Shown here: positions 15,894-43,813 of the stretch, in pieces | How positions within the stretch are numbered: position 1 is the stretch's first letter | Layout of the letters: every line of letters starts with the position of its first letter | Source of the DNA: Bacteroidota bacterium | GTDB taxonomy: Bacteria > Bacteroidota > Bacteroidia > JACCXN01 | Assembly (NCBI GenBank): GCA_013696965.1 | Contig: JACCXN010000010.1 | Location: 62,001-126,000, forward strand | DNA: 64,000 bases | Reading direction: 5' to 3' | The notes under the pieces: generated by a model | What the model saw: the letters and a program-made list of their open reading frames with translations, nothing else | What the model was told of the DNA's origin: nothing | Database searches by the model: none | Position numbers and translations under genes: made by a program

Positions 15894-17243
15894 TTGTCAA
15901 TAAGTAAAAATATAATCAATCAGTTTATAGTCCAATCAACAGGAATTATTTCTGGGTTTTTCATTTCTATAATAATTGCTAAAATATTAGGGCCAGCAGG
16001 AAGGGGTGAATTTGCTGTTTTTGTAACTTCCCTTACCTTTATCTCTATATTCTTAAGTTTAAGTATAAATCATAGTATTTTATATGCAATTTCTTCAAAC
16101 AAATTTCCCATAGACAAAATATTTTACACTTGTTTGCTTTTTTCGCTAGGACTTATTTTTGTTAATATTATTTTTTTCTGGACTGAATTTTTATTTCATT
16201 CAAACTTCCTTTTTTCCAATGAATCAATTACAGCAAACGCTTTAATGATATTAGGATTTACCATTTACCTTTTTATAAGTATAATAAATGCTGTTATGGC
16301 AGGTTTGAAAATTTTCAAATTACAACAATTACTTTCTATCCTATTTTCAATTTTAAATATTATACTTTTTGGAGGATATTTTTTTATAAAAGTTTATGTT
16401 TCACCCACTGTCCAGATTCAATTTAACGATTTTCTTTATTTTTACACCTTTACCCAGATAATAATACTGATTATTACCTTATATTTTTTTTTTAAGGAAA
16501 CTCCAATTTCTTTTAATATTTCATTTTTAAATTTTAAAGATTTTAAATTTTTAATAGCGTTCTCTTTAACAGCATACCTTGCAAATTTATTTCAATTTTT
16601 AACTTATAAAATCGACATTTCATTTGTAGACTTTTATTTAGGCAAAAGCCAATTAGGAGTTTATTCTCTCGCAACTAACTTAACAAGAATGTTTTGGGTT
16701 TTGCCAGTCTCGATTTCAACAATTCTTATTCCTTATAATGCAACAGATGAATTAAGCAGGTCAACTATTAACATAAATAAATTAACAAGAACAACTATTT
16801 TCATGATTGTTGTTATTATCGCTTTTAGCTTACCTTTAATTGATCTATTTATTCCATTTATTTATGGTAATGAGTTTTCTGAGGCTTCTACTATATTAAA
16901 AATATTAATTTTTGGATTAATACCATTTGCTGCAACTAATATTGTTCTTTCTTTTTTTAGTGGTCGAGGTTTGGTTAAACATAATCTTATTTTTGCCTTT
17001 ATTGTATTTATTTTGACCATTACAGGTGATTATTTTCTTATAAATTCTTTCGGAACAGTTGGCGCCTCTATTACTAATGTCTTAAGCTATACTCTAGGCT
17101 TTATATACCCTTTGGTAATTTATATCAATTATACCAATGCAAGTTTATCTGATTTATTAATAGTTAAAAAACTGGATTTTGTAGAAGTAAAAAAGAAACT
17201 TTCTGCTAATTTAAAATTAAACATTTTCAAAACTCCTAAATGA
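15894..17243 (+). CDS. Polysaccharide flippase, Wzx-like (MATE/PST superfamily)
   Basis: 449 aa with about 12 to 14 predicted membrane helices and the family's N-terminal signature QFIVQSTGIISGFF...AKILGPAGRGEFAVF. Proteins of this type flip undecaprenyl-linked oligosaccharides across the inner membrane for O-antigen or capsule assembly. The start is taken as TTG at 15894: an in-frame TAG at 15876 rules out anything longer, and the next Met would remove the conserved first helix. It overlaps the next glycosyltransferase gene by four bases (ATGA), so it opens a polysaccharide operon. The substrate cannot be predicted. Confidence 0.85.
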   Translation: MSISKNIINQFIVQSTGIISGFFISIIIAKILGPAGRGEFAVFVTSLTFISIFLSLSINHSILYAISSNKFPIDKIFYTCLLFSLGLIFVNIIFFWTEFLFHSNFLFSNESITANALMILGFTIYLFISIINAVMAGLKIFKLQQLLSILFSILNIILFGGYFFIKVYVSPTVQIQFNDFLYFYTFTQIIILIITLYFFFKETPISFNISFLNFKDFKFLIAFSLTAYLANLFQFLTYKIDISFVDFYLGKSQLGVYSLATNLTRMFWVLPVSISTILIPYNATDELSRSTININKLTRTTIFMIVVIIAFSLPLIDLFIPFIYGNEFSEASTILKILIFGLIPFAATNIVLSFFSGRGLVKHNLIFAFIVFILTITGDYFLINSFGTVGASITNVLSYTLGFIYPLVIYINYTNASLSDLLIVKKLDFVEVKKKLSANLKLNIFKTPK

Positions 17244-18379
17244 GAAAGATTTTAATTCTATCATATTCAAATCTTAATAGCGACCCTAGGGTTATAAGGC
17301 AAATTTCTGCTCTCAAAAGTGATAATGAAATTTCAATAGCTGGATATTCATCTGTACAAGAAAAAAATGTACAATTTTTTCCTATTTATTCTGCGCCACC
17401 TTTTTCTTTAAAAAGAAAGATGAAAAGATTTGTACAATTTTTATTTAGAAGATATGATCTTTATTATTGGGATGCAGGAAAAATTTCTTTTTACAAGAAA
17501 ATAATAAAGGAACAGTTTAATGTGATTGTTTCAAATGATATTATGACATTACCCTTAGCTTTAAAAATTGCTGATAAAACAAATGCTAAAGTATGGTTTG
17601 ATGCTCATGAGTTTCATCCAAGGGAATTCGAAGATAATTGGAAATGGAGAGTTTTGTATCAAAAGTATATAAGTCATCTATGTAAAAAATATATTCCTCA
17701 TGCACAAGTTTTTTCGACTGTTTGCGATGGAATAGCCCAGGAATACTTTAATTACATAGGCATTTTACCTCAGATTATTACCAATGCATCCAATAGAATA
17801 CAACTAAAGCCTTTTATTACTAAAAAAAATAATATTAAATTAGTTCATCATGGAGCAGCAATACGTTCAAGGAAAATAGAATTAATGATCCAAATGATGT
17901 CTTTTCTAGATAATCGATTTACTATTGATTTCATATTAACAGGAAGTGATTTAAAGTATATAAACGAATTAAGGAAATTGTCTAAAAAAAATAAAAATAT
18001 TCGTTTCATACCACCTGTCGAATTTAGTCAAATTTGCAATTTGTTAAATCCCTATGATATAGGAGTCTTTCTTTTACCCCCTGTAAATTTAAATTACAAA
18101 TTTGCCCTACCAAATAAAATATTTGAGTTTATTCAAGCAAGATTATGTATAGCGGTATCACCATCTCCGGAAATGGCTAATTTAGTGCGTACTAATAATT
18201 TAGGTGTAGTATCAAAAGAATATACTCCGAAAGCCATGGCACAAGTTATAAATGAGTTAAATGAAGATAAAATATCCAATTTTAAAAATAATGCTCACAT
18301 TGCAGCTAATAATATTTCTGCTGAAAAGAATTTTGTTAAAATGAATGATATTGTAGAAAGTTTAATTAATAATAAATAA
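17240..18379 (+). CDS. Glycosyltransferase, GT-B fold, family 4-like
   Basis: 379 aa. The N-terminal half starts with a typical Rossmann strand (KILILSYSNLNSDPRV, the SDPRV loop being common in GT4 proteins acting near O-antigen loci) and has DAHEFHPREFE (~120). The C-terminal half carries the donor-binding motif PNKIFEF (291-297) with the conserved Glu296. It should transfer a sugar from a nucleotide donor to a lipid-linked acceptor in the cytoplasm. It overlaps the flippase gene by four bases and is followed ten bases later by asnB. Sugar specificity unknown. Confidence 0.82.
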   Translation: MRKILILSYSNLNSDPRVIRQISALKSDNEISIAGYSSVQEKNVQFFPIYSAPPFSLKRKMKRFVQFLFRRYDLYYWDAGKISFYKKIIKEQFNVIVSNDIMTLPLALKIADKTNAKVWFDAHEFHPREFEDNWKWRVLYQKYISHLCKKYIPHAQVFSTVCDGIAQEYFNYIGILPQIITNASNRIQLKPFITKKNNIKLVHHGAAIRSRKIELMIQMMSFLDNRFTIDFILTGSDLKYINELRKLSKKNKNIRFIPPVEFSQICNLLNPYDIGVFLLPPVNLNYKFALPNKIFEFIQARLCIAVSPSPEMANLVRTNNLGVVSKEYTPKAMAQVINELNEDKISNFKNNAHIAANNISAEKNFVKMNDIVESLINNK

Positions 18380-18389
18380 TTTCAAAAGC

Positions 18390-20216
18390 ATGTGTGGAAT
18401 TTCCGGAATATTATCTTTCAACAAAAAAATTGAAGCTGTATCTTTAAAGAAAATGATTGATACACTTGATCATAGAGGCCCTGATGGAGAAGGTATCTGG
18501 TTAAATGAAAAACAGCAGGTAGGATTAGGGCATAAACGGCTTTCAATTATAGATTTAACTGATTCAGGAAAGCAGCCCATGCATTATTGTAATGGTCGGT
18601 ATTCTATTACTTTTAATGGAGAAATATATAATTATATAGAAATTAGAGAAAACTTAATAAAACAAGGTTTTAAATTTGTATCAAATTCTGATACAGAAGT
18701 GTTACTTGCTCTTTATGAGTATAAAAAAGAAAAGGCGCTGGAAGATTTGGATGGGATGTTTGCTTTTGCAATTTGGGATGAAAAGGAACAAACTTTATTT
18801 TGTGCAAGGGACAGGTTTGGTGAAAAGCCTTTCTTTTATCACCGTGATAAAAGTACTTTTTCATTTGCTTCGGAAATGAAAGCCCTTTTTCAATTTATTG
18901 GTAAAAGAAATATTGACAACAAACATATTTACAATTATTTTCTGTATAGTATTATTGAAGATCCGAATAATCCAACTACAACCTTTTTTCAGGATATTCA
19001 TCAGCTCCCTCCAGCACATTATATAGTTATTGACAGCAATAATAATATGACTGGAAGAAAGTATTGGGATGTTGATTTAAATTACCAGGTAAATTATTCA
19101 ATAGAAGAAGCTAAAGAAAAATTCATCTCTTTATTCACCCAATCCATTACCAGAAGGCTTCGAAGCGATGTGACTGTTGGAAGCAGCTTGTCAGGAGGAA
19201 TTGATTCCTCCAGTATAGTAATGATGATTGATCGATTGAAAGGAACGGGCCAAATTCAAAAAACCTTTTCAGCAAGATTTCATAATTTCGAAAAAGATGA
19301 GGGGAAATTTATGGAAATGGTAATTAAAAATAGCAAGGTTGAACCACATTATGTTTACCCAACTGCTGAATCAGCGTTAGAGAATCTTCAAAAAATAATG
19401 TACCATCAGGAAATGCCCTTTGGCAGTACCAGCATTGCAGCACAATACGAGGTAATGAAACTTGCCAGAGAAAATAAAGTAACAGTACTTTTGGATGGGC
19501 AAGGTGCGGATGAATATCTTGCAGGCTATTCAAATTACTGGCCTTCTTATTTAATGCAGTTATATCGTGAAAACAGAAATAAATTTCATCAGGTAAATCA
19601 ACATTTAAAATCTCTTCATAATTTTGATAGCTTAGAACAAAATTTTGATTTTAAGCTAAAAACATATAGCTATGCTGCTTATAAAAAATATGGAGATATT
19701 ATGCGTAGGTATAAAAATCCTTCTTCGGATTATTTTATGGGTTTAAATCCTGAAATCACAAGACAATATCAGTCTGGAAGAAATCCTTTATACAAACCAC
19801 CTCATCTCAAGAAACAACTATACCAGTCAACGCTCAAAACTGACCTGGCCAATTTGTTGAGATATGCGGATAGAAATTCAATGGCAAACTCCATTGAAGT
19901 AAGACTCCCTTTCTTGTCACATAAACTTGTAGAATTTGTATTTAGCTTGAATGATGATTTTAAAATAAATAATGGCTGGACAAAGTATATTCTAAGAAAA
20001 AGCATGGAAGGCATTCTCCCCGATGAAATAACATGGAGAAAAGATAAAATAGGTTATGAACCTCCTCAACAAGAATGGTTAAATAAAAATGCTTTTCAGA
20101 GCTTGTTTAAGGAAGCTGCGGAAGACTTAAAAAAGGACAGAATAATTACAAAAGAATCAGACATGCTAAACTGGTCATACTTGATGATTTATTTACTGAA
20201 AAAATCTTTTAATTAA
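18390..20216 (+). CDS. AsnB-type glutamine amidotransferase 1 (asparagine synthase family)
   Basis: 608 aa. An N-terminal class II glutaminase domain starts with the catalytic Cys2 (MCGISG) and has RLSIIDL, NGEIYNY and SDTEV for glutamine binding. The synthetase domain has the PP-loop SGGIDSS (268-274). The second ATP-site motif reads DGQGADE (369-375) where E. coli AsnB has SGEGSDE, so the catalytic Glu348 equivalent is Gln371. Embedded in a glycan operon (it overlaps the next gene by one base), it may amidate a sugar acid rather than aspartate, as AsnB homologues in O-antigen loci are thought to do. That function is inference. Confidence 0.85.
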   Translation: MCGISGILSFNKKIEAVSLKKMIDTLDHRGPDGEGIWLNEKQQVGLGHKRLSIIDLTDSGKQPMHYCNGRYSITFNGEIYNYIEIRENLIKQGFKFVSNSDTEVLLALYEYKKEKALEDLDGMFAFAIWDEKEQTLFCARDRFGEKPFFYHRDKSTFSFASEMKALFQFIGKRNIDNKHIYNYFLYSIIEDPNNPTTTFFQDIHQLPPAHYIVIDSNNNMTGRKYWDVDLNYQVNYSIEEAKEKFISLFTQSITRRLRSDVTVGSSLSGGIDSSSIVMMIDRLKGTGQIQKTFSARFHNFEKDEGKFMEMVIKNSKVEPHYVYPTAESALENLQKIMYHQEMPFGSTSIAAQYEVMKLARENKVTVLLDGQGADEYLAGYSNYWPSYLMQLYRENRNKFHQVNQHLKSLHNFDSLEQNFDFKLKTYSYAAYKKYGDIMRRYKNPSSDYFMGLNPEITRQYQSGRNPLYKPPHLKKQLYQSTLKTDLANLLRYADRNSMANSIEVRLPFLSHKLVEFVFSLNDDFKINNGWTKYILRKSMEGILPDEITWRKDKIGYEPPQQEWLNKNAFQSLFKEAAEDLKKDRIITKESDMLNWSYLMIYLLKKSFN

Positions 20217-21322
20217 TGTTAAAAAAAAGAAAAAAAATACTTTTTGCTGCGGTTGATATTGGTTATAGAATAGAAGTTTACACAAATTTTATTGAGAAAA
20301 ACCTTGATGGTCAGCTCCAGGCAGATTCTTTTTCAAAATACGTTCTTCCAAAAGAACACTACAAAACTCAATATACATACACTTGTCCTATTGACAAAAC
20401 ACATCCCTGGATCCTATATTCATACTCTTTTATATTTTTTATTTTTAGTCTATTCAAATATGATATTTTTCACTTTTTTTCAGGCGAAACCATCCTTACA
20501 AGAAAATTAAGAAGATTTGAATTTTTTATATACAAATTATTAGGTAAGAGAATTATAATGCATTTTGTTGGCGCGGATATTAGAAACCCGAATTATTTAA
20601 TATGGAAAGAAAAAAATATTGACGAATTCCTAAAAGGGAAAAAACCAATTCCCTTAACATTGAAATGGCAGGATAAATTAATAAAAGACAGTTTAAAATA
20701 TGCAGATGAAATTTTAGTTTCAACTCCTGATTTATTAAAAATTATTCCTACTGCAAAGTTTTATCCTGTGGTAATTGATTTAGATAAATTCTTTACTGAA
20801 GTGGGCAAGGTGGAAATCAAGGAAAACTGTAAAACTTATAATATCCTCCATGCTCCATCAAACACAGCTGTAAAAGGAACTAATTCAATCCATAAAAAAC
20901 TGTCTGAATTCAAAAACAAAAATCAAAATAAAATCCAATTGATGTTGCCTGGAGAAAATATTATGAATTCAAAAAAACTATATTCGGTTTCAAGATATGA
21001 ATTGTTTAAGCTTTTCATTGAATCGGATATAGTAATAGATCAGATTATTATTGGTTGGTATGGTTTGCAATCCATAGAGGGATTACTGACAGGAAATCAT
21101 GTACTGTGTTATATTGAGGATGATTTGAAAAAATATTCCTTTGATGAATGCCCGGTAATTAATATAAATACTTTGAATTTTGAACAGGTTCTTGAAGAAG
21201 TAATTTCAAATGGAAACAGGAATAAATCAGAAATTGCCAAAAACAACTTGAAATGGGTTGAAAAACATCATACTATTGAAAACAACAATAAAATTTTATT
21301 GGACGCTTGGAATGTGAATTAA
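20216..21322 (+). CDS. Putative glycosyltransferase (GT-B type)
   Basis: 368 aa. The start ATG overlaps the asnB stop (TAATG). It opens with a Rossmann-type strand (KKILFAAVDIGYR), has LLGKRIIMHFVGADIR and ADEILVSTPDLL in the N-terminal half, then HAPSNTAVKGT (from H212), which in GT4 proteins is the start of the donor-binding half, and GLQSIEGLLTGN near the C-terminus. Motifs are weaker than in the neighbouring transferases and no E-x7-E pair is clear, so the call rests on fold-like features plus context. It probably adds one sugar or modified group to the island 1 glycan. Confidence 0.65.
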   Translation: MLKKRKKILFAAVDIGYRIEVYTNFIEKNLDGQLQADSFSKYVLPKEHYKTQYTYTCPIDKTHPWILYSYSFIFFIFSLFKYDIFHFFSGETILTRKLRRFEFFIYKLLGKRIIMHFVGADIRNPNYLIWKEKNIDEFLKGKKPIPLTLKWQDKLIKDSLKYADEILVSTPDLLKIIPTAKFYPVVIDLDKFFTEVGKVEIKENCKTYNILHAPSNTAVKGTNSIHKKLSEFKNKNQNKIQLMLPGENIMNSKKLYSVSRYELFKLFIESDIVIDQIIIGWYGLQSIEGLLTGNHVLCYIEDDLKKYSFDECPVININTLNFEQVLEEVISNGNRNKSEIAKNNLKWVEKHHTIENNNKILLDAWNVN

Positions 21323-21334
21323 ACAATAAAAATT

Positions 21335-22207
21335 ATGGTAAAAGGAAATAAAATTTTTGATTTATTTAGAACTGTTTTAATATTTACTTCTTTGGATAGA
21401 TATTATTCTCGTTTAATAAGGGGAAAAAAACACGATTCATTTATAGGTAAAATGGCTCCGAATAATTATCAATACAAAAAAGGCACATATAGAATTGCAC
21501 GCCTTAATAACAACATAAAATTATCAGTTGATTTACATGACTATTTAGGCCATTACATTTATTTTGGATACAAGGACCAATCGCAAGATGCATTATTAAA
21601 ATTAGTTGAGGAGAATTATAGTGTTTTGGATATCGGTACTAATATTGGAAATACTGCTTTATTATTTGCAGACAAAGTTAAAGCGGCAGGCAGAGTTATT
21701 GGCTTTGAACCAGACCCGGAAACATACCAATTATGCATGAAAAATTTAGAATTAAACAGTTTTGAAAATCTCAAGGTTCACAATATTGGATTTGGAGATA
21801 ATAATTCTTCTTTTTTTATTGAAAGCCTTATAGATTCAAACATTAGTGGAAATAGGATCAACGAGAAATTAACGCAAGGGCAAAAACAGGTTAGTGTAAA
21901 AAGGTTGGATGATGTGTTTTTTGATTTTAATTTAAAAAAGGTTGATTTAGTGAAAATTGATGTAGAAGGGTACGAAATGAAAGTATTAATAGGAGCAAAA
22001 GAAACCATTCAAAAATTTAAACCAACTTTGTTTATTGAAATTGATGACAATAACCTTAGAGATCAAAAATCATCTGCTCAAGAACTTCTCGACTTTTTAG
22101 AAAAAAACAATTACACTAGTGTAGAAGCTGTATCAAACAAGCCAATTAACAGCAATTATAATTTTAAAGATTGTCATTTTGATATTATTAGTACCTCTAA
22201 TTGTTAA
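21335..22207 (+). CDS. FkbM-family SAM-dependent methyltransferase
   Basis: 290 aa. Motif I VLDIGTNIGN (97-106) binds S-adenosylmethionine, GFEPDPETY is motif II, and KIDVEGYE (207-214) is the characteristic FkbM motif. In glycan loci FkbM proteins O-methylate sugars or other hydroxyls; the exact position is not predictable. The gene lies 12 bases after the preceding transferase gene and is read in the same direction, so it is part of the island 1 operon. A second FkbM gene lies in island 2 at 43872. Confidence 0.88.
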   Translation: MVKGNKIFDLFRTVLIFTSLDRYYSRLIRGKKHDSFIGKMAPNNYQYKKGTYRIARLNNNIKLSVDLHDYLGHYIYFGYKDQSQDALLKLVEENYSVLDIGTNIGNTALLFADKVKAAGRVIGFEPDPETYQLCMKNLELNSFENLKVHNIGFGDNNSSFFIESLIDSNISGNRINEKLTQGQKQVSVKRLDDVFFDFNLKKVDLVKIDVEGYEMKVLIGAKETIQKFKPTLFIEIDDNNLRDQKSSAQELLDFLEKNNYTSVEAVSNKPINSNYNFKDCHFDIISTSNC

Positions 22208-22297: not shown

Positions 22298-23461
22298 ATG
22301 ATGGATTTTTATAAAAAATCTGCTTCCATGAAAAATGATAAAATAACCGTAGTTAAAATTATTTCTGGTATTGATAAAGCATTGGCATTTGAATGGATTG
22401 CAACTTTAACATCCACGGAAAAGATTCAATTTTACTTTATTTTTTTAAATAACAAAGTTCCTCAGTTGCATCATTTCATGGTGCAAAACAATATACCATC
22501 TAATTTCATTAAATTTAGTTCAAAACTTGATTTTTTCTTTGTATTGCCCCGACTTTTTTTTATGTTGAGAAAAATAAAGCCAAGCGTAGTACATACCCAT
22601 TTATATGAAGCCAACTTACTCGGAATATTTATTTCGTTTATCTTAAGGGTTCCCAAAAGAATACACACAAGGCACCATTCAACCTTTCACCACCAATATC
22701 ACCCTAAACATGTTAAAATAGATCGGCTTATCAATTATCTTTCAACAGATATTATTGCAATTAGCGAAAATGTTAAACTTGTTTTAACTGATTTAGAAAA
22801 AGTTCCTGAGAAAAAAATACATTTAATACGTCATGGATTTGACCTAAAAGGGTTTAATAGTGTTTCGGAGGAACGCATAAACAAAATAAGAGAAAAGTAT
22901 AACCTAAAGGATTCCATGAGACCAGTAATTGGAGTTATATCAAGATATTTGAATCTAAAAGGTATTCAATATATAATTCCTGCATTTAAAAACATTCTTG
23001 TTAAATATCCTCATGCACTACTGATTTTAGCAAACGCTAAGGGTTCATATGAAAAAGAAATAAAACTTTTATTGAAACAAATACCAACTGAGAATTACCT
23101 GGAAATAATTTTCGAAGAAGATATTTTTGCCTTATATAAAAGCTTTGATTTATTTATTCATGTCCCAATCAATAAGCAAGTCGAAGCATTTGGCCAAACA
23201 TATGTAGAGGCATTAGCAGCAAAAATCCCTTCTGTGTTTACCCTTTCTGGAATAGCGCCCGAATTTATTACCCATAAACAAAATGCCCTTATTGTTGATT
23301 ATGCAAATTCTGATCAAATATATAAAGCTATTGAACTTATTTTATCAGATAAAGAATTAGCAATTGATCTTACAAATAAAGGACTTATATCAATAAACCC
23401 ATTTAACATTGAAAGATTTATTGATTCATTAACCCAATTGTATAGCAGTAATAACCAATAA
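22298..23461 (+). CDS. Glycosyltransferase family 4
   Basis: 387 aa. The N-terminal acceptor half contains VVHTHLYEANLLG and the His-rich HTRHHSTFHHQYHP; the C-terminal half has GVISRYLNLKGIQYIIPAF (the typical G-R-x-x-x-x-K-G segment), LILANAKGSYEKEI and the E-x7-E motif EAFGQTYVE (E296, E304). This is a retaining GT4 enzyme, expected to act in the cytoplasm on a lipid-linked intermediate. There are 90 bases before it and 178 after it, looser packing than at the start of the operon. The first of several near-adjacent Met codons is chosen as start; Met11 is a possible alternative. Confidence 0.87.
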   Translation: MMDFYKKSASMKNDKITVVKIISGIDKALAFEWIATLTSTEKIQFYFIFLNNKVPQLHHFMVQNNIPSNFIKFSSKLDFFFVLPRLFFMLRKIKPSVVHTHLYEANLLGIFISFILRVPKRIHTRHHSTFHHQYHPKHVKIDRLINYLSTDIIAISENVKLVLTDLEKVPEKKIHLIRHGFDLKGFNSVSEERINKIREKYNLKDSMRPVIGVISRYLNLKGIQYIIPAFKNILVKYPHALLILANAKGSYEKEIKLLLKQIPTENYLEIIFEEDIFALYKSFDLFIHVPINKQVEAFGQTYVEALAAKIPSVFTLSGIAPEFITHKQNALIVDYANSDQIYKAIELILSDKELAIDLTNKGLISINPFNIERFIDSLTQLYSSNNQ

Positions 23462-23639: not shown

Positions 23640-24512
23640 ATGTTTTTTTCAATCATTATCCCAACTTATAATCGGGCAAGTTTTATTCAAAAGGCAATTG
23701 AATCTGCAATTAATCAAAATTTCAAGGATTTTGAAATAATTATTGTAGATGATGGGAGTATTGATAATACAGAAGAAACTGTTAAAAAAATAATTGATGA
23801 AAGAATCAGATACTTTAAAATTTCAAATAGCGAAAGGGCTGCCGCAAGAAATTATGGAGCGAAAAAGGCAAATGGAAAATTCTTGACTTTTTTAGATTCA
23901 GATGACCTTTTATATAACAACTATTTAAAAAATGCATTTGAATTGATCCAAAAAAATCCGCAAAATTCTTTTTTTCATTTGCCTTATGCCATTAAATCAA
24001 AAAACAATACAAAAAAAATATTTATTCCAAATCCTGATTCTCCACTATTTTTAGCTAAAGGGAATCCTTTAAGTTGTATTGGGATAATTGTTGAAAAGAA
24101 TGCGTTTTTAGCAAAATTGTTTAACGAAAACAGGCTTTTATCAGGATCAGAAGATTGGGAATTATGGCTCAGGATTTTTTCTAAATATGGATTAATTACA
24201 GGAAATGACATTTCAGCTTGTTTGTTTAATCACAATGATAGGAGTGTTTTTAATTTCTCAGAAAAGGAATTAGTAACAAGAAAGGAATTGGCAATTAATT
24301 CTGCCTTTTCAGATATTGATGTTAAAAGAGTTTTTTCTCGTTATAGAAATACAATGGAAGCATATTGCGATTCATACATTGCGCTGCATTTAATGCTTTC
24401 TAAAAATAAAATAAGGGGATTGTTTTATTTATATAATTCAATAAAAATTTGTCCTGAAACAATCTTAACCAGAAGGTTTTTGGGAATATTAAAACACCTG
24501 ATAATATCCTAA
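23640..24512 (+). CDS. Glycosyltransferase family 2 (GT-A fold)
   Basis: 290 aa. It begins MFFSIIIPTYNR and carries the nucleotide-binding VDDGS (D37, D38) and a metal-binding FLDSDD (D86-D89), the standard GT2 features. A later SGSEDWELWLR segment matches the catalytic region with ED and W. It is an inverting transferase and presumably elongates the island 1 glycan. The 178-bp gap before it (23462-23639) holds only short broken frames, including a 29-codon frame starting MFIISIIV at 23582, and no clear regulatory signal. asnB copy 2 follows three bases after its stop. Confidence 0.9.
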   Translation: MFFSIIIPTYNRASFIQKAIESAINQNFKDFEIIIVDDGSIDNTEETVKKIIDERIRYFKISNSERAAARNYGAKKANGKFLTFLDSDDLLYNNYLKNAFELIQKNPQNSFFHLPYAIKSKNNTKKIFIPNPDSPLFLAKGNPLSCIGIIVEKNAFLAKLFNENRLLSGSEDWELWLRIFSKYGLITGNDISACLFNHNDRSVFNFSEKELVTRKELAINSAFSDIDVKRVFSRYRNTMEAYCDSYIALHLMLSKNKIRGLFYLYNSIKICPETILTRRFLGILKHLIIS

Positions 24513-24515
24513 CAT

Positions 24516-26396
24516 ATGTGTGGAATAACTGGATTTTATGCATTTAAGGGGAGCCTTCCGGAAGTTGATTTCAAAAAATTCAACGATCTGTTGATTCATC
24601 GGGGTCCTGATTCCCAAGGAGTTTTTTCCGATGATTCGATTTTTTTGGGTCATACCCGGTTAAGTATTCTTGATCTCTCAGCAAGTGGAAACCAGCCCAT
24701 GACCTCGCATAATGGAAGGTTTGTGATGGTTTACAACGGTGAAATTTACAATTACAGGGATATTGCAAATGAAATAAAAACGCATACTTCACAAGAGGAT
24801 ACTATCCTTTTCAATTCATCCTCTGACACTGAAGTAATTCTGGAAGCTTTTGTTTTATGGGGCCCTGAATTTGTTCATAGATTAAATGGCATGTTTTCAA
24901 TAGCAATCTATGACACCATTGATAAAGAATTATTTCTTTTCAGAGATCGGCTAGGAATAAAACCTCTTTATTACTGCTTACATGAAGATACAATTGTATT
25001 TTCCTCTGAATTAAAAGCTATTCAGTCCTTGGATTTTATCCCTAAAACACTTAACAAAGCAGCTATTTTCAATTTCCTCAATCTAGGTTACATCCCTGCT
25101 CCCCATTCCATTTACAATGAAATAAAAAAATTGCAATCCGGCTGTTATCTCAAAATAAATTCAGCAGGTTCCGAATCAATTAAGTACTGGAACCTATATT
25201 CTCAACTTACTGACGAGGTAATCCATGAGGAAAAAAAGGCTCTTATTTTATTGAGTGATCTTCTTGTAAGTTCGGTGCAATATCAATTAAAAAGCGATGT
25301 TCCGGTTGGAATTTTTTTAAGTGGTGGAATTGATTCAAGTTTAATAGCAGCTCAAGCAGCAGGTTTATCTTCCACTCAAATTAATACTTTTTCAATTGGT
25401 TTTGAAAACAATAAGAGCAATGAAACACCTTATGCCCGAAAAGTTGCCCAACAGCTTAAGACTTGCCATTCTGATCTGATTGTTTCTGAGAAAGAAGCAT
25501 TTGGATATTTTGAAGAATTAACTTCAGTTTATGATGAACCTTTTTCTGATTCCTCTGCAATTCCGGCAATGATTATATCGAAATTAGCTAAAGGTTCAGT
25601 TACCGTAACACTTTCGGGAGAAGGGGGTGATGAATTGTTTTTTGGTTATGGCTCCTATAAATGGGCAGAAAGATTAGATAATTCAATAGTCCGAAATATA
25701 GGTAAGTCCTTATATCCTGTTCTAAATAAAACTAGTAACAATAGATTAAAGCGGGCTGTTAATCTATTTAATTATTCAAGTAATGCTCGAATTATGAGGC
25801 ATATATTTTCTCAGGAGCAATATAATTTTTCAGATAAAGAGATTACTTCATTATTAGAAAAGAATTACAAAAACATTTCCTGGGACTTGAATGAAAACCC
25901 TTATATAAAACTAAATAAAAGGAAGTTGCAGGCATCTGAAAAACAAGCCTTATTTGATTTGGAATATTATCTGCAAGATGACCTTTTAACCAAGGTTGAC
26001 AGGGCAAGCATGAAATATTCAGTTGAAACAAGGGTTCCTTTTCTTGATCATAGGGTTGTTGAATTTGCTTTAAATATTTCACCTGAATTGAAAATTAAAA
26101 ATGGTGTTTCTAAATATTTATTAAAGGAAATATTGTATCAATACCTTCCTAAAGAACTATTTAACCGTCCAAAACAAGGGTTTTCTATTCCATTGGGAAA
26201 ATGGTTGAAAGGGGGATTATTTAGTAATTTGATAGAAATGTATTTATCAGAAGAAACAGTGAAACATTTTGGTATTGTTAATCATCTTAAGGTAAAAGAG
26301 CTTATTTTTCGTTTTAAAAATGGGGAAGACTATTTGTACCAGAGGATTTGGTTACTTATTACCCTCCATAAGTGGTTAAAACAAAACCACAATTGA
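24516..26396 (+). CDS. asnB: Asparagine synthase (glutamine-hydrolysing), AsnB copy 2
   Basis: 626 aa. Class II glutaminase domain with Cys2 (MCGITG), RLSILDL, NGEIYNY and SDTEV, followed by the synthetase domain with SGGIDSS (269-275) and SGEGGDE (367-373). Here the catalytic Glu (E369, E. coli E348 equivalent) is retained, unlike in the other two copies in this window. The C-terminal RPKQGFSIPLGKWL motif is typical of AsnB proteins in polysaccharide and wall-modification loci. It could make asparagine or amidate a glycan carboxylate; of the three copies it is the most likely true asparagine synthetase by motif. It closes the plus-strand part of island 1 and is followed by a hairpin. Confidence 0.88.
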   Translation: MCGITGFYAFKGSLPEVDFKKFNDLLIHRGPDSQGVFSDDSIFLGHTRLSILDLSASGNQPMTSHNGRFVMVYNGEIYNYRDIANEIKTHTSQEDTILFNSSSDTEVILEAFVLWGPEFVHRLNGMFSIAIYDTIDKELFLFRDRLGIKPLYYCLHEDTIVFSSELKAIQSLDFIPKTLNKAAIFNFLNLGYIPAPHSIYNEIKKLQSGCYLKINSAGSESIKYWNLYSQLTDEVIHEEKKALILLSDLLVSSVQYQLKSDVPVGIFLSGGIDSSLIAAQAAGLSSTQINTFSIGFENNKSNETPYARKVAQQLKTCHSDLIVSEKEAFGYFEELTSVYDEPFSDSSAIPAMIISKLAKGSVTVTLSGEGGDELFFGYGSYKWAERLDNSIVRNIGKSLYPVLNKTSNNRLKRAVNLFNYSSNARIMRHIFSQEQYNFSDKEITSLLEKNYKNISWDLNENPYIKLNKRKLQASEKQALFDLEYYLQDDLLTKVDRASMKYSVETRVPFLDHRVVEFALNISPELKIKNGVSKYLLKEILYQYLPKELFNRPKQGFSIPLGKWLKGGLFSNLIEMYLSEETVKHFGIVNHLKVKELIFRFKNGEDYLYQRIWLLITLHKWLKQNHN

Positions 26397-26406
26397 ACAA
26401 AGAGTG

Positions 26407-26434
26407 AACTAAATTTCTTTAGTTTGGTTTTTTT
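26407..26434 (+). terminator. Probable rho-independent terminator after asnB copy 2
   Basis: Stem AACTAAA (26407-26413) pairs perfectly with TTTAGTT (26418-26424) around a TTTC loop, followed by TGG and seven T's. It overlaps the last codons of the converging membrane-protein gene. The stem is short and AT-rich. Confidence 0.5.
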
Positions 26435-27744
26435 GCCTTGAGATAAAAATCATTAAGAAGAAACAGACTTGCAACAAAAAATGGTATTGCCGGAATTTTC
26501 AATCGAACAAGGGAACCGAAATTGGATATGGATATGCCCACTGAAAATGCAAAGAAAAGGGAAAACAAAACTGCGAACAACATCAGGGGGTTTTTCCAGA
26601 TTATACTAAAAAACCCTATAAATTTCAGCTTTATCAAAAGAAATATCGTCAGGAACATTATGTAGGTGTTCTCAAGAGCAGAAATTAACATAACAGGATT
26701 TCTAACATCTAACAATGTAGGCCGGAAATACGCTGCAAATAAAGCCTGGGGTGCTTTTAAAAACATACCTCCAATGCTTGCATCAAAATCGCCAATATCA
26801 AATGTATTACCCCCATAATAATCCTGTTTCATGTCATTCTGTGTAATGGTTGCTCTTTCCATAACACTATCCATGGCGTATAATCCAAGCAAATCACTCA
26901 TTTGCAACAATGCGAAATACCCCATGGCTGAACCAATTAAAATCAAAAACGGGGATGTTAATGCAATCATTATTTTACTTTCAAATCTTGATGATATTTG
27001 ATTAGACATCCAGATTAAACAACCTGGTAATAGCGCAAATAATATATAGGGTTTAATTGCTAAAATAAGCCAACTACTAATTACCAGAAAGACTATACTT
27101 TTTGCCAAATCTTCTCTTTTAATTACAGAGGTATAAAAGGCATATGTAAACCATCCAACGGCAGCTAAAGTTATTGTATCTTTTAATATGCCTGAACCCC
27201 AAAAAACAACTGAAGGAACAAACAAAATGGCAATAGCAAACTTTTTATACAGATGAGGAAATTCTGAACAAAAGACTTGATATAATTTCCAAATTCCAGT
27301 ATAACACAACCAAGCCAATAAAAAGGAAGAAACTAAATAGCTTTTTAAGCCCAAAAAAACAAATGGAGTTAAAAATTTAACCACAAAAACAGCATGATAG
27401 TCACGTGGAGCATAAATAATATAACCAGTATCATAATTGAAGCATGCATTGGTTTCTATTGTATAACCAGTTGTAACAATTTCCCAAAAACAAGAGAAAT
27501 TGAAATACATAAGATTAATCAGTGCCCTTGCAGAAAGAAAATAATTTAAAGTATCTCCCCCTGTATAATAAAAATTGTAAATAAGACCTAACATTAATGC
27601 CCCGAACAATTTTGCTAATAGCCCGGGGATGTAATATTGATAAATAGGATTGTGTTGATTTTTTTTTCTAATATACCAGGAAACAGCTAGAATTAAACCT
27701 AAATAAAAAGGCGTTAGTAAAACATCCCAAAAGGTAAAAACCAT
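26419..27744 (-). CDS. Polytopic membrane protein, possible Wzy/EpsG-like polysaccharide polymerase
   Basis: 441 aa with about ten hydrophobic helices. Features include YYTGGDTLNYF after the second helix and PSVVFWGSGILKDTI in the middle, reminiscent of EpsG/Wzy-type proteins where a charged loop after a G-D motif precedes the catalytic helices. No conserved domain can be named with certainty. It is the only candidate polymerase in the island, read against the surrounding glycosyltransferase genes: its start faces the next transferase gene across 81 bases and its end overlaps the asnB terminator. If a polymerase, it would join repeat units at the periplasmic face. It could also be a membrane glycosyltransferase. 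Confidence 0.55.
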   Translation of the reverse strand: MVFTFWDVLLTPFYLGLILAVSWYIRKKNQHNPIYQYYIPGLLAKLFGALMLGLIYNFYYTGGDTLNYFLSARALINLMYFNFSCFWEIVTTGYTIETNACFNYDTGYIIYAPRDYHAVFVVKFLTPFVFLGLKSYLVSSFLLAWLCYTGIWKLYQVFCSEFPHLYKKFAIAILFVPSVVFWGSGILKDTITLAAVGWFTYAFYTSVIKREDLAKSIVFLVISSWLILAIKPYILFALLPGCLIWMSNQISSRFESKIMIALTSPFLILIGSAMGYFALLQMSDLLGLYAMDSVMERATITQNDMKQDYYGGNTFDIGDFDASIGGMFLKAPQALFAAYFRPTLLDVRNPVMLISALENTYIMFLTIFLLIKLKFIGFFSIIWKNPLMLFAVLFSLFFAFSVGISISNFGSLVRLKIPAIPFFVASLFLLNDFYLKAKKPN

Positions 27745-27825: not shown

Positions 27826-29016
27826 ATGAATATTCTCTATATTTCTTATGACGGGATGACAGACCAATTGGGTCAATCTCAAGTACTGCCATATCTTATG
27901 GGTTTGTCGGGAAAGGGATATAAAATAACTTTAATTAGCTGCGAGAAACCATCAACTTTTCAAAAAGGGAGAAAGAACATTGAATCAATTATTTCAAATA
28001 ACATATTCTGGATTCCTATTCCCTATTCAAATAAATATCCGATATTTTCCCAAGCTTTAACATTTCTGAGTTTAAAAAAAAAGGTTTTTACCACCTATAA
28101 AAACCAAGGTTTTGATATTGTCCATTGCAGAAGTTATATGGTCTCTTTAATCGGTTTGGAATTGAAAAAAAAATATGGAACAAAATTCATATTTGATATG
28201 CGCGGATTTTGGGCAGATGAAAGATTGGAAGGGGATATTTGGAGGCTTTCAAATCCAATTCATAAATTCTTATATTATTATTTTAAAGAAAAAGAGAATG
28301 AATTTCTTGCTAATGCCGATCAAATAGTGAGTTTAACTCATGCTGCTAAAAGAGAAATACTGCAATGGGAAGGGTTAAACATCCCCTCAGAAAACATTTC
28401 AGTAATACCTTGCTGTACGGACCTCAATTTATTCTCAAATGATATAAATACTGAAAAATTCAAGGAATTCACTCTTACTTATCTTGGCTCATTAGGCACT
28501 TGGTATATGCTTACAGAGATGCTTGTTTTCTTTAAACATTTGTTGGTTTTTAAACCCCAGGCAAATTTTTTATTTATCACAAAAGATCCTGCTGAAAAAA
28601 TTTTAATTAAAGCCAGGGAATTAAATATTCCAGAGCATTTAATAAGAATTAAACCTGCTGAGAGAAAAGAGGTTCCAGCTTTATTATCTAAAAGCCATGT
28701 TTCAATTTTTTTCATAAAACCAGTATTTTCAAAAAAAGCATCCTCACCAACAAAAATGGGAGAGATAATAGCTACAGGTATTCCATTGATTACAAATTCA
28801 GGAACCGGAGATATTGATGAAATAATTCAAGAAACAGGTTGTGGCATTGTTGTAAAAAGTTTTGAGGAAAATGAATTGAAAAAAGTTGCAGAAGAAATTG
28901 ATTCACTTTTAGAAATCCCTGTTGAAAAGCTCAGAAGCACTGCTAAAGAATTGTTTTCTTTAGAAAAAGGAATCGAAACATATAACACCATTTACAAAAA
29001 GCTTGGCCTAAAATGA
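27826..29016 (+). CDS. Glycosyltransferase family 4-like
   Basis: 396 aa. N-terminal MNILYISYDGMTDQLGQSQ is a recognisable start for a Bacteroidota GT4 group, with GFDIVHCRSYM, FDMRGFWADER and ADQIVSLTHAA in the acceptor half. The donor half contains VIPCCTDLNLF, LGSLGTWY and SPTKMGEIIATG followed by GTGDIDEII, where K and E correspond to the sugar-nucleotide site. It overlaps the next transferase gene by four bases (ATGA). The 81-bp divergent spacer upstream contains a short ATT triplet run (27791-27804) and must hold the promoters for this pair and for the membrane protein. Confidence 0.85.
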   Translation: MNILYISYDGMTDQLGQSQVLPYLMGLSGKGYKITLISCEKPSTFQKGRKNIESIISNNIFWIPIPYSNKYPIFSQALTFLSLKKKVFTTYKNQGFDIVHCRSYMVSLIGLELKKKYGTKFIFDMRGFWADERLEGDIWRLSNPIHKFLYYYFKEKENEFLANADQIVSLTHAAKREILQWEGLNIPSENISVIPCCTDLNLFSNDINTEKFKEFTLTYLGSLGTWYMLTEMLVFFKHLLVFKPQANFLFITKDPAEKILIKARELNIPEHLIRIKPAERKEVPALLSKSHVSIFFIKPVFSKKASSPTKMGEIIATGIPLITNSGTGDIDEIIQETGCGIVVKSFEENELKKVAEEIDSLLEIPVEKLRSTAKELFSLEKGIETYNTIYKKLGLK

Positions 29017-30107
29017 AAATCCTTTTTTTAACCCCCTACCCCGAAAAAGAGGCTCCTAGCCAAAGGTTCAGATTCGAGCAATACCTGGACTTTTTTGAGC
29101 AAAATGGAATTACCTGTAAAATTGAATCCTTTTTAAATAAAAAAACCTGGAGTGTTTTTTATTCTCCAGGAAATAAATTCATGAAAACATGGGGCGTTTG
29201 CATGGGAATTACAAAACGTTTTTTGCTCCTTTTTAAACTTCATCAATATGATTTGATTTTTATCCACAGGGAAACTTGTTTTATCGGTCCTGCCATTTTT
29301 GAAAAATGGTATGCTCATCTTTCCGATAAAAAAATTATCTATGATTTTGATGATTCCATCTGGCTTCATGATGTATCTGATGCCAACGAAAAACTTGGTT
29401 GGCTTAAATCACCTTCAAAAACAGCCCATATTATAAAATATTCAGGACATGTAATTGCAGGAAACAATTATTTAGCTTCTTATGCTAAAAAATTTAATGA
29501 TAATGTAAGTGTTATTCCCACTACCATTGACACTTCTTACCATCATCCTTTTGTTCATGAGAATAAAAAAGGAATTACAATTGGTTGGACTGGATCTGAA
29601 ACAACAGTAAGGCATTTTGAACTTATTATCCCCATACTTAAACGATTAAAGGAAAAATACGATCAAAAGGTAAATTTTCTTCTTATCTCAAATAAACCGT
29701 CAAAGACATCTGATTTAGAAATTGAATTTATTAAATGGTCTAAAGAAACAGAAATAGAGAATCTTTCAAAAATTGATATTGGAATAATGCCTTTACCTGA
29801 CGATATGTGGGCAAAAGGTAAATGTGGTTTTAAGGGCCTGCAATATATGGCTCTTGAAATTCCTGCAGTAATGTCTCCTGTTGGTGTTAATGCTGAAATA
29901 ATTGAAGATGGAGTAAACGGTTTCATTGCTTTAGATGATGTTCAATGGATTGAAAAACTATCTAAGCTTATCGAATCTGAAGAATTACGAAAAGAAATCG
30001 GAAGAAAAGGAAGAGAAACAGTAATCGAAAAATACTCGGTTGAATCACAAAAAGAGCGGTATTTGGAAGTATTTAATAAGGTTTTCAACCTGCCAAAAAA
30101 ACTATAG
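29013..30107 (+). CDS. Glycosyltransferase family 4
   Basis: 364 aa. N-terminal KILFLTPYPEKEAPSQRFR, then IIYDFDDSIWL (~108) and GHVIAGNNYLA; donor half with VIPTTIDT, IGWTGSETT, KIDIGIMPLP and GKCGFKGLQYMALEIP, followed by SPVGVNAEII and GVNGF. The K-G-F-K-G-L-Q-Y segment replaces the usual P-x-K-x-x-E-Y motif and is typical of this GT4 subgroup. It is the last glycosyltransferase of island 1 and translationally coupled to its neighbour. After its TAG stop the same frame stays open for another 65 codons (to 30305) without an initiation codon. Confidence 0.85.
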   Translation: MKILFLTPYPEKEAPSQRFRFEQYLDFFEQNGITCKIESFLNKKTWSVFYSPGNKFMKTWGVCMGITKRFLLLFKLHQYDLIFIHRETCFIGPAIFEKWYAHLSDKKIIYDFDDSIWLHDVSDANEKLGWLKSPSKTAHIIKYSGHVIAGNNYLASYAKKFNDNVSVIPTTIDTSYHHPFVHENKKGITIGWTGSETTVRHFELIIPILKRLKEKYDQKVNFLLISNKPSKTSDLEIEFIKWSKETEIENLSKIDIGIMPLPDDMWAKGKCGFKGLQYMALEIPAVMSPVGVNAEIIEDGVNGFIALDDVQWIEKLSKLIESEELRKEIGRKGRETVIEKYSVESQKERYLEVFNKVFNLPKKL

Positions 30108-42346: not shown

Positions 42347-43813
42347 TTATCTAAAAAAAGACTTGACAGTGTCGTTTAACTCCTTATCCACTTTCCAAAA
42401 GAACGCAAGTAGAACATAAATCAGTGTAACAAGAATAGATTTATATATTATTGTTAAAACAGCATTGGAATAAAAAGGAAGAAAATACCCAATAAAAAAT
42501 ACAAGGAAAATAATGCTCAAAACCTTAAGCGAGCTAAAATCAAAGGGTTGCATTTTAAATTGCTTCCAAATAAACAAATATTTTAAAAGATTGTAAATAA
42601 AACTGGAAATGGCAGTAGCCAATGCCGCTCCTTCAATACCCAAAATTGGAATTAAAACAACATTGCTTACAAAGGCAATTACAACCAATAATATCAACAG
42701 GAAAGCACCAAATTTATATTTGTCAGAATTGAAAATAATTGCAGTATTTGAACCTCCTGCCATTGTGAAAAAAGTGCCTATGCTTATAATGAGTACAACC
42801 ATTCCCCCTTGTGCAAAATCAGCAGGAAGCAAAGAAAGCAGGGAACTAATATTTATATTTATTCCTATAAATAGCAATCCTCCCGCTAAAAGCATATAAC
42901 GGGAGGATTTATAATAGATTTCCTGAATTTCTATTCGATTATTAACTGACAAGGCTTGTGATATTTTTGTTCCGGCTATTTTATCCAAAGCGAAAAGAGG
43001 TGCTTCTATTACTGTGGGTATAAAAGCTGCTATGGTATATATACCAACTGCCGTTAAAGGCAAAAAACGAGCAATCATTATGCTATCCAGGTATTTCAGT
43101 CCTAGAGAAGCTATTGAGGCAAAAGAGAGTAGAAATCCATATTGTAAAATCTCATTTAAGTTTTGACTTTTAACCATTTTAAAGTCAACTTTAAAACCGG
43201 GTTTGTCAATAATAAAAATGTAAATAAGCAGCAGTATTAACTGCAAGCCATAAACAAATACAAAACAAAAAACAAACTGCTCTAGGTTAAGTAGTTTAAT
43301 AAAATAGGCTGCTATTACAAGAATTGTGAAAATTCTAGAAACAACATCATTGAGTACGGATGGAAAGGTGGTTCGAAACAATGAAAAAGCATAAATATTA
43401 AGCACATTTATTAATCCCAGGAACAGCGACAATGGGAATATATAATCAAAAAATTCAACAAAAAGGGCTGATTGATCAATGTACTGACCAATAAAAAAAT
43501 CTCTGGAAAGATAGAGTGCAGCTGTGATTATTAAAAAACCGGCAACCGGAAAAAGCAACATAAAACCAAAATAGCCATGGTGTTTTTTCTCTGCATTCCT
43601 GAATTTAGGAAAATATTTAACAGTTATATTTCCAATGCCAAGTGGAAGAAACACAGCAATAAGGGAAGAGAAAGAAAACAAAACGCGTGTTAAGCCTATT
43701 TCTTCTGTTGTTAAAAATAGGGGCTGGAAAACAAGTAAGTTTGCAAAGCCCAGGATTATTCCAAAATAAGTAACTATTGTGTTCTGTATTCCTTGTTTTT
43801 TTATTATTCCCAC
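42347..43813 (-). CDS. Polysaccharide flippase, Wzx-like, island 2
   Basis: 488 aa with about 14 membrane helices, start GTG at 43813 (KKQGIQNTIVTYFGIILGFAN is the typical first amphipathic segment and helix). PLFLTTEEIGLTRVLFS and the mid-protein SIMIARFLPLTAVGIYTIAAFIP are typical of this MATE-like oligosaccharide exporter group. It is divergent from the FkbM gene with a 58-bp spacer. It differs clearly from the island 1 flippase in sequence, so the two islands likely export different glycans. Confidence 0.85.
   Translation of the reverse strand: MGIIKKQGIQNTIVTYFGIILGFANLLVFQPLFLTTEEIGLTRVLFSFSSLIAVFLPLGIGNITVKYFPKFRNAEKKHHGYFGFMLLFPVAGFLIITAALYLSRDFFIGQYIDQSALFVEFFDYIFPLSLFLGLINVLNIYAFSLFRTTFPSVLNDVVSRIFTILVIAAYFIKLLNLEQFVFCFVFVYGLQLILLLIYIFIIDKPGFKVDFKMVKSQNLNEILQYGFLLSFASIASLGLKYLDSIMIARFLPLTAVGIYTIAAFIPTVIEAPLFALDKIAGTKISQALSVNNRIEIQEIYYKSSRYMLLAGGLLFIGININISSLLSLLPADFAQGGMVVLIISIGTFFTMAGGSNTAIIFNSDKYKFGAFLLILLVVIAFVSNVVLIPILGIEGAALATAISSFIYNLLKYLFIWKQFKMQPFDFSSLKVLSIIFLVFFIGYFLPFYSNAVLTIIYKSILVTLIYVLLAFFWKVDKELNDTVKSFFR

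Follow-up and report, generated by a model that had tools for sequence, protein, structure and literature searches.

Glutamine at the Glu348 position of AsnB as the signature of a large AsnB-like subfamily with members in glycan gene clusters

Two of the three AsnB-like proteins (copies 1 and 3) encoded in a 64,000-nucleotide stretch of a Bacteroidota genome (assembly GCA_013696965.1, contig JACCXN010000010.1, positions 62,001 to 126,000; hereafter the window) carry a glutamine in place of Glu348 of Escherichia coli AsnB. Judged from alignments and trees, this glutamine does not reflect damage to an asparagine synthetase but characterizes a large AsnB-like subfamily. In our favoured reading, to which we give a probability of roughly 0.56, copies 1 and 3 are enzymatically active and use glutamine to amidate a glycan carboxylate (probably a uronate), and copy 2 is a uronamide synthase of the WbqG/WbpS type. 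The motif, the branch in the trees, the intact catalytic residues, and the genome contexts on which this reading draws are direct observations, whereas the activity, the acceptor, and the role of a relocated carboxylate are inferred.

Results

Three AsnB-like proteins in the window

The three genes and their motifs are located as follows:

18390..20216, forward strand: AsnB-like copy 1, 608 amino acids; DGQ subfamily, motif D369-G-Q371-G-A-D-E
19494..19514, forward strand: DGQGADE motif of copy 1; Q371 codon at 19500-19502
24516..26396, forward strand: AsnB-like copy 2, 626 amino acids; SGEGGDE (E369); on one branch with the O-antigen-locus AsnB proteins of E. coli O121 and O65
25614-25634, forward strand: SGEGGDE motif of copy 2, from the pattern match
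45994..47835, reverse strand: AsnB-like copy 3, 613 amino acids; DGQ subfamily, Q368
46720..46740, reverse strand: DGQGADE motif of copy 3; Q368 codon at 46734-46732

Translation of these coordinates yields no internal stops in copies 1-3, and a six-frame search of the window for [SDA]GxGxDE returned three matches only, one per AsnB copy. Each protein combines a class II glutaminase domain (PF13537/PF13522) with an Asn_synthase domain (PF00733). In the alignment, E348 of E. coli AsnB shares its column with Q371 of copy 1, Q368 of copy 3, and E369 of copy 2 (positions 346 and 348 below follow E. coli AsnB). The motifs and residue numbers that a first-pass annotation had given for copies 1 and 2 were reproduced by translation and alignment; for copy 3 the DGQGADE motif stands, but the glutamine is residue 368, not 369. 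With the reading frames open and the motif columns conserved, a chance or frameshift origin of the glutamine is ruled out.

Copies 1 and 3 score 466 and 474 bits with the asparagine synthase model TIGR01536 (cut-off 267) and, at 377 and 342 bits, stay below the cut-off of 525 of the lasso-peptide cyclase model NF033535. Unlike these two, copy 2 has the XrtA/PEP-CTERM amidotransferase model TIGR03108 as its top NCBIfam model, although the cut-off of 816.9 is reached neither by copy 2 (518) nor by copy 1 (372), copy 3 (383), or the AsnB of E. coli O65 (525).

Copies 1 and 3 fall into a large DGQ branch

The family set comprised 226 distinct proteins, obtained from 262 hidden Markov model matches after removal of repeats and of proteins shorter than 450 amino acids; these rows still include two near-identical E. 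coli O65 entries, and for reference E. coli AsnB and the O-antigen-locus AsnB of strain O121. Loci L007-L086 were picked by similarity to DGQ proteins (the best 80 of 586), and the 65 Bacteroidota rows from outside the window's own genome are a subset of the longer match list, chosen by score and manually. A FastTree phylogeny was computed for all 226 rows with the motif columns removed (the program stars Shimodaira-Hasegawa (SH) support of at least 95), and an IQ-TREE mixture-model tree for 80 of the 226 rows with motif and signature columns removed and ten long-branch rows kept out of the random draw.

Position 348 is occupied by Gln in 112 of the 226 rows, by Asp in 41, by Glu in 32, and by other residues in 41. 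All 83 rows with Asp at 346 and Gln at 348 fall on one 100-row side of the FastTree phylogeny (the DGQ branch; SH 93, below the starred 95), and a 102-row set containing copy 3 has SH 97. Gln is found at 348 in 97 of the 100 branch rows and 15 of the 126 rows outside, whereas an acid (Asp or Glu) is found there in 0/100 and 73/126, respectively. In the 80-row tree, 33 branch rows join three proteins matching the lasso-cyclase model and one DGHG row in a 37-row side without an acid at 348 (SH approximate likelihood ratio test, SH-aLRT, 100); the DGQ branch label needs three changes on this tree, of which the starred branches force at least one. The earlier suggestion that the Gln swap marks a subfamily is thus borne out by one branch in both trees, and copies 1 and 3 are assigned by sequence to a single large, unnamed AsnB-type subfamily. 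A description of the DGQ motif was not found in the literature searched.

Further positions distinguish the branch from the remaining rows (copy 1 numbering, percent in branch versus rest): Q371 (97/12), R258 (94/18), D369 (83/3), N496 (82/0), and Q352 (80/7). P324 and R536 mark the branch as well, and in the alignment copies 1 and 3 both carry the signature D369, Q371, N496, R258, P324, and Q352. Since several signature residues shift along with D369 and Q371, the acceptor pocket of the branch is, as read from the alignment, altered as a set of which the Gln is only one part.

Going by record titles, the 70 branch members that come from the similarity-picked loci span 14 phyla, with 38 in Bacteroidota and five without an assigned phylum, and many are from metagenome-assembled genomes. 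The DGQGxDE pattern was found at the DNA level in 47 of 296 Bacteroidota genomes; among the matches listed, an AsnB-family open reading frame (at E 1e-10) is present at 22 of 30 DGQGxDE loci and at 0 of 30 DG[DE]GxDE loci, and two further DG[DE]GxDE places fall inside short PF00733 matches. In the 226 rows, none of the 90 with an acid at 346 also has one at 348. A family-wide rule that the two acids exclude each other was nevertheless rejected, because this pattern is broken by L321 (G007:C2 near 1103418), which is one of these 30 DG[DE]GxDE loci and holds a 469-amino acid frame with a weak PF00733 match. One of the proteins nearest to copy 1, at 52% identity, is L009, from a contig labelled Candidatus Saccharibacteria, a possible case of mis-binning or transfer.

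Catalytic residues and predicted structure

Eleven catalytic residues (Cys1, Arg49, Asn74, Gly75, Asp98, S234, G236, D238, S239, D351, and K449) are all kept in 94 of the 100 branch rows, the other six having an alignment gap at one or more of them. Copies 1 and 3 keep all 11, and all three window copies retain the glutaminase residues (the catalytic Cys, Arg49, Asn74, Gly75, and Asp98) together with the SGGxDS PP-loop, D351, and K449 of the synthetase domain. Such conservation makes it unlikely that the DGQ-branch proteins are dead as enzymes.

An AlphaFold2 model of copy 1, built from a 40-row alignment, has a mean predicted local distance difference test score of 92.6 and a predicted template modelling score of 0.93. 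It matches E. coli AsnB with a VIA Z of 37.3 (474 residues, 2.5 Å), spanning residues 2 to 608, and human ASNS with a VIA Z of 34.8. Copies 1 and 3 share with both enzymes the whole fold, the glutaminase and PP-loop residues, and K449; they differ in reading D-G-Q instead of S346-G-E348 and in having no counterpart of the TTIR segment. The hydroxyamidotransferase TsnB9 (PDB 7ylz), which we take to be a natural-product pathway enzyme, ranks first among solved structures for copy 1 in both sequence similarity (2.9e-47) and VIA Z, where its 37.5 (511 residues, 2.2 Å, likewise over residues 2 to 608) ties with 1ct9. Unlike copies 1 and 3, TsnB9 retains the glutamate in an SGEAADE motif.

Position 348 in characterized relatives

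Glu348 of E. coli AsnB reportedly has a role in commitment, as described by Meyer et al. in 2010. In modelling of human ASNS, Ser362 was positioned at the 2'-OH of the ribose and Glu364, via a water molecule, at the aspartate alpha-carboxylate (PMC6748925), so that the 346/348 pair would touch both ribose and acceptor. This glutamate, a trait of asparagine synthetases, is absent in copies 1 and 3 and present in copy 2. The first-pass annotation had called it the catalytic Glu, which is apt for asparagine synthetases but not for the whole family, where position 348 is variable (E, D, Q, L, T, and others).

Lasso cyclases, which have the same fold, are working enzymes that form amide bonds. Three proteins in our set (L195-L197) exceed the NF033535 cut-off and read DGFD, DGID, and TGID at the motif, with Ile or Phe at 348; they keep the PP-loop, D351, and K449 and have lost Cys1, Arg49, and Asn74. 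They resemble the DGQ copies in their position on the same side of the 80-row tree, in having no acid at 348, and, in two of the three, in an Asp at 346, whereas copies 1 and 3 keep the glutaminase Cys, Arg, and Asn and stay below the NF033535 cut-off. By analogy, these proteins argue that an acid at 348 is not required for acyl-adenylate chemistry in the AsnB fold.

Copy 2 and the WbqG/WbpS branch

Amidotransferases of the WbqG/WbpS type (from E. coli O121, Pseudomonas aeruginosa, Helicobacter pullorum, and Porphyromonas gingivalis, where the protein is PGN_1234) form uronamides; of these, only the O121 sequence was compared here. E. coli O121 WbqG is reported to be required for uronamide formation, and a PGN_1234 mutant lost the uronamide (PMC7468200, with reference to King et al. 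2010). The paper on the H. pullorum wbpS mutant is not consistent: its Discussion has the uronamide replaced by N-acetylhexosaminuronic acid (HexNAcA), but a sentence of its Results gives HexNAcAN (PMC6025236). In Tannerella forsythia, an AsnB is encoded in the same cluster as wecB/wecC, the glycan contains a mannosaminuronamide, and the authors suggest an acetamidino role (PMC6120980).

The O-antigen locus of E. coli O121 has only one annotated AsnB gene, which we took to be wbqG. Its product has the motif SGDAGDE, with Asp at 348, and the E. coli O65 asnB product reads SADGGDE. The O65 glycan presumably contains a galacturonamide, for which we found no confirmation in the literature searched. 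Copy 2 groups with the O121 and O65 proteins in both the 226-row tree (17 rows, SH 95) and the 80-row tree (12 rows, SH-aLRT 98), and within the 17 rows position 348 is Asp in 16 and Glu in copy 2 alone. Copies 1 and 3 lie outside this WbqG branch and inside the DGQ branch in both trees. The O121 protein thus shares the AsnB architecture, the glycan-operon setting, and the glutaminase and PP-loop residues with copies 1-3 and its branch with copy 2, but it differs in its Asp at 348 from copies 1 and 3 with their D346/Q348.

Because the O121 enzyme has Asp at 348 and groups with copy 2, Gln alone does not mark sugar amidation. The simple scheme in which Q would stand for sugar amidation and E for asparagine synthesis was rejected, as the O121 and O65 O-antigen AsnB proteins near copy 2 are acid types. 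The first-pass annotation had suggested that the swap may mark a subfamily amidating sugar carboxylates or a different acceptor; a sugar carboxylate is plausible, with some members lying among genes for 2,3-diamino-uronic and acetamidino sugars, but the Gln-for-Glu swap does not serve as the divider from asparagine synthesis.

Genome context of the DGQ branch

Gene neighborhoods were counted at 113 loci whose flanks reach at least 4 kb in either direction: 69 of the DGQ branch, 12 of the WbqG branch, and 32 others. Families were sought with home-made profiles, so absences are soft, and the p values are corrected neither for relatedness nor for the testing of multiple families. A glycosyltransferase (GT) or flippase match lies within 5 kb at 55 of the 69 DGQ-branch loci, in agreement with the glycan setting noted in the first pass; its placement of the two window copies in different glycan operons also holds, with flippase, GT, and FkbM methyltransferase genes around each. 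GT4 matches within 6 kb are common in all groups (52/69 DGQ, 12/12 WbqG, 20/32 other), and the glycan setting is therefore shared and not DGQ-specific.

Within the same 6 kb, PF02350-type epimerases (18/69 DGQ versus 1/44 other loci, p = 0.0006) and GFO/IDH proteins (10/69 versus 1/44, p = 0.048) are more frequent near DGQ genes; the corresponding figures are 12/69 versus 2/44 (p = 0.08) for WbuX-like N-acetyl-sugar amidotransferases, 10/69 versus 2/44 (p = 0.12) for HisF-like, and 8/69 versus 1/44 (p = 0.09) for HisH-like proteins. Epimerases of the short-chain dehydrogenase/reductase type show the opposite tendency (12/69 versus 18/44, p = 0.008), and no DGQ versus other difference was seen for DegT, GT2, flippase, or hexapeptide matches (p 0.19 to 1). 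Two candidate partners were rejected: FkbM methyltransferase (9/69 versus 3/44, p = 0.36) and UDP-sugar dehydrogenase, which shows a reverse tendency (p = 0.07). Taking the PF02350-type epimerase, GFO/IDH, WbuX-like, HisF-like, HisH-like, and UDP-sugar dehydrogenase families as six uronate/acetamidino markers, at least two are present at 16/69 DGQ versus 2/44 other loci (p = 0.008).

NCBIfam models confirm several names: WbuX (L040, L043), HisH and the AglZ/HisF2 acetamidino protein (L043), and wecB (L043, L279); the GFO/IDH protein of L279 passed no NCBIfam cut-off. The matches at L279 run DegT, hexapeptide, GFO, epimerase, GT4, WbuX-like, HisF, AsnB(DGQ), WbuX-like, and those at L026 comprise a UDP-sugar dehydrogenase frame, GFO, hexapeptide, DegT, flippase, AsnB(DGQ), and epimerase. 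By their gene content, both are near-complete Wbp-like sets of the 2,3-diamino-mannuronate type, and we assume that they serve the 2,3-diamino-mannuronate pathway. Some DGQ members have 2,3-diamino-uronic acid and acetamidino-sugar genes around them, which makes a sugar-carboxylate acceptor plausible.

A second AsnB gene lies within 5 kb at 12 of the 69 DGQ-branch loci. Pairs of a DGQ and a WbqG-branch gene occur in the window, at L008, and at L012, and BLAST clustering found several further genes in common between L008 and the window's cluster A (described below). The joint retention of two AsnB types suggests two amidation steps.

A set of DGQ loci lies in non-glycan surroundings: L015, L018, L021, L022, L024, L025, and L049 and the Bacteroidota loci L282 and L283, some of them, by record title, from Chitinophagales; their neighbors include, not all at each locus, DUF2911, deoxyhypusine-synthase-like, DUF2400, and acyl carrier protein phosphodiesterase proteins and a pyridoxal phosphate-dependent Cys/Met lyase.

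Asparagine supply in the source genome

Besides copies 1-3, the genome from which the window derives (G000; 3.86 Mb, 106 contigs, completeness 100) encodes three PF00733 proteins, whose residues at 348 are D, L, and Q, so that its six paralogues read E, D, L, Q, Q, and Q. AsnA was not found in this genome, and none of the six shows the canonical two-piece AsnB match pattern in Pfam; asparaginyl-tRNA synthetase (AsnRS) and GatB are both present. The TTIR segment of E. coli AsnB, which we take to have a proposed aspartate-binding role, has no counterpart in the six aligned paralogues, being gapped or replaced, with the gap placement uncertain. The paralogue on contig C79, which reads SGDGADE, is one candidate asparagine supplier. 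Elsewhere, contig C23 carries a TviB-like dehydrogenase (below the TviB cut-off, above that for nucleotide-sugar dehydrogenases in general) with GFO, hexapeptide, and epimerase genes, and the genome has two PF02350 epimerases; this gene content counts in favour of a uronate acceptor.

Discussion

In the reading that we favour, the N-terminal domain would hydrolyse glutamine and the PP-loop domain would adenylate a carboxylate, with ammonia then yielding a primary amide, a chemistry predicted from residue conservation. For most subfamily members, the AMP/acceptor loop would have its acid at 346 (Asp) and not at 348 (Gln), as a relocated carboxylate, and the Gln-for-Glu change together with the other pocket changes would represent a re-formed acceptor site, not a defect. 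The likeliest acceptor would be the carboxylate of a glycan precursor, probably an amino- or diamino-uronic acid. Much more tentatively, the DGQ subfamily may consist of undescribed uronamide synthases for 2,3-diamino-uronic (including acetamidino) sugars, which would adenylate without Glu348 by means of the carboxylate at 346, share an ancestor with lasso-peptide cyclases, and in some cells pair with a WbqG-type enzyme to act on two sugars of one glycan; we regard this fuller proposal as rather doubtful.

Several observations weigh against the favoured reading. The E364A and E364Q variants of human ASNS are inactive (PMC6748925), and no DGQ-branch member with a demonstrated product was found in the literature searched. 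An acid at 346 is missing too in 14 of the 100 branch rows, which implies that the relocated carboxylate is not strictly required, and the short PF00733 protein L321 has acids at both positions (DGDGGDE). The two trees disagree on the proteins matching the lasso-cyclase model, which the 80-row tree joins to the DGQ branch and the 226-row tree leaves outside it; this slightly lowers our confidence in the favoured reading and in the fuller proposal. The marker enrichment is not corrected for relatedness, with three of the 16 loci from Chryseobacterium, and few Bacteroidota sample loci stand behind it (PF02350-type epimerase, 6/21 versus 1/24). UDP-sugar dehydrogenase lies within 6 kb of just 1/69 DGQ versus 4/44 other loci, nine DGQ-branch loci have no glycan matches within 5 kb, and none of the six markers was found within 6 kb of copies 1 and 3.

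Among the alternatives, the one that we rate highest, though still unlikely, treats the Gln as a neutral lineage mark: copies 1-3 would all form glycan uronamides by the same chemistry, and positions 346 and 348 would say nothing of acceptor or mechanism. The variability of 348 in the family, the Gln in 15 of 126 rows outside the branch, and the occurrence of Q-type and D/E-type proteins in glycan loci, at times the same locus, fit this well; it accounts less readily for the complete lack of Asp and Glu at 348 among the 100 branch rows, the several pocket columns that change together with the Gln, and the side-by-side types in the window, L008, and L012, which suggest different jobs. Somewhat less likely again is that the DGQ proteins are asparagine synthetases after all, with Asp at 346 taking over the role of Glu348. 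Their TIGR01536 scores lie well above the cut-off, and G000, which has AsnRS but neither AsnA nor a canonical-pattern AsnB, may draw its asparagine from one of the paralogues; moreover, the DGQ protein is the sole PF00733 match listed in G027 and G059, and G045, which has AsnRS and neither AsnA nor GatB, encodes three PF00733 proteins whose residues at 348 are L, D, and T; the one with T belongs to the DGQ branch. If G045 makes its own asparagine, Glu348 would be dispensable. Against this, the TTIR segment has no counterpart in the six paralogues of G000, GatB in G000, G027, and G059 makes Asn-tRNA amidation possible, the C79 paralogue offers an alternative candidate, and 55 of 69 branch loci lie near glycan genes.

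We consider it improbable that, in the manner of lasso cyclases, the subfamily uses another amine in place of ammonia, such as an amino acid or amino sugar, for coupling to a glycan carboxylate. The lasso-cyclase-model proteins do lie on the branch side of the 80-row tree, and NF033535 gives 318-410 bits for six DGQ proteins versus 175-285 for six other AsnB proteins; but L195-L197 leave the branch in the 226-row tree, and copies 1 and 3 keep the Cys1, Arg49, and Asn74 that L195-L197 have lost, an indication that the ammonia comes from glutamine. Least probable of all, and in our view very much so, is a dead synthetase site in proteins that serve as glutaminases or scaffolds of the glycan machinery: the inactivity of human ASNS E364Q (PMC6748925, as above) speaks for it, whereas all 94 gap-free branch rows have the equivalents of the PP-loop, D351, and K449, as do the lasso-cyclase-model proteins, which have no acid at 348.

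All six DGQ proteins scanned pass the NCBIfam asparagine synthase model, and many surface-glycan enzymes are therefore probably filed as asparagine synthetases. The DGQ subfamily offers a lead for annotating uronamides in Bacteroidota glycans. A single genome presents an active-site contrast of E/D versus Q at 348 and S versus D at 346, and, together with the lasso-cyclase-model proteins without the acid, this contrast makes acceptor choice and adenylation in the AsnB fold testable.

Glycan clusters and other features of the window

Copies 1 and 2 share glycan cluster A; the genes annotated around them are:

15894..17243, forward strand: Wzx-like flippase-type polysaccharide transporter (PF01943), first gene of the cluster
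17240..18379, forward strand: GT4-type glycosyltransferase (PF13692)
20216..21322, forward strand: probable glycosyltransferase; no Pfam family over cut-off, in a BLAST cluster with neighbor proteins that include GT4 matches
21335..22207, forward strand: FkbM-family methyltransferase (PF05050, TIGR01444)
22298..23461, forward strand: GT4 glycosyltransferase (PF00534)
23640..24512, forward strand: GT2 glycosyltransferase (PF00535)
26419..27744, reverse strand: possible O-antigen polymerase or ligase; 441 amino acids without a Pfam family, with about nine hydrophobic spans in a simple sliding-window estimate
27826..30107, forward strand: two GT4-type glycosyltransferases (27826-29016 and 29013-30107)

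Copy 3 lies in glycan cluster B, with these genes annotated around it:

42347..43813, reverse strand: flippase-type transporter (PF01943)
43872..44756, forward strand: FkbM-family methyltransferase (PF05050), near copy 3
44756..45910, forward strand: GT4 glycosyltransferase (PF00534), near copy 3
47838..49130, reverse strand: GT4 glycosyltransferase (PF13439), directly upstream of copy 3
49127..51619, reverse strand: YfhO-like membrane protein (PF09586), overlapping the glycosyltransferase gene by four bases

Outside these clusters, the reverse-strand frame at 8965-11646 encodes 893 amino acids with two N-terminal and four C-terminal D-Ala-D-Ala ligase domain stretches and resembles a tandem fusion of two ligase units. 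Cargo tails of the type IX secretion system (T9SS; Por_Secre_tail, CHU_C) are found on large proteins at 12460-15654 (reverse), 5867-8068 (reverse), and 30562-32148 (forward), one of them with PKD repeats. The presence of T9SS tails and copy 2 in one window is reminiscent of what we take to be a link between WbpS and T9SS linking sugars in P. gingivalis.

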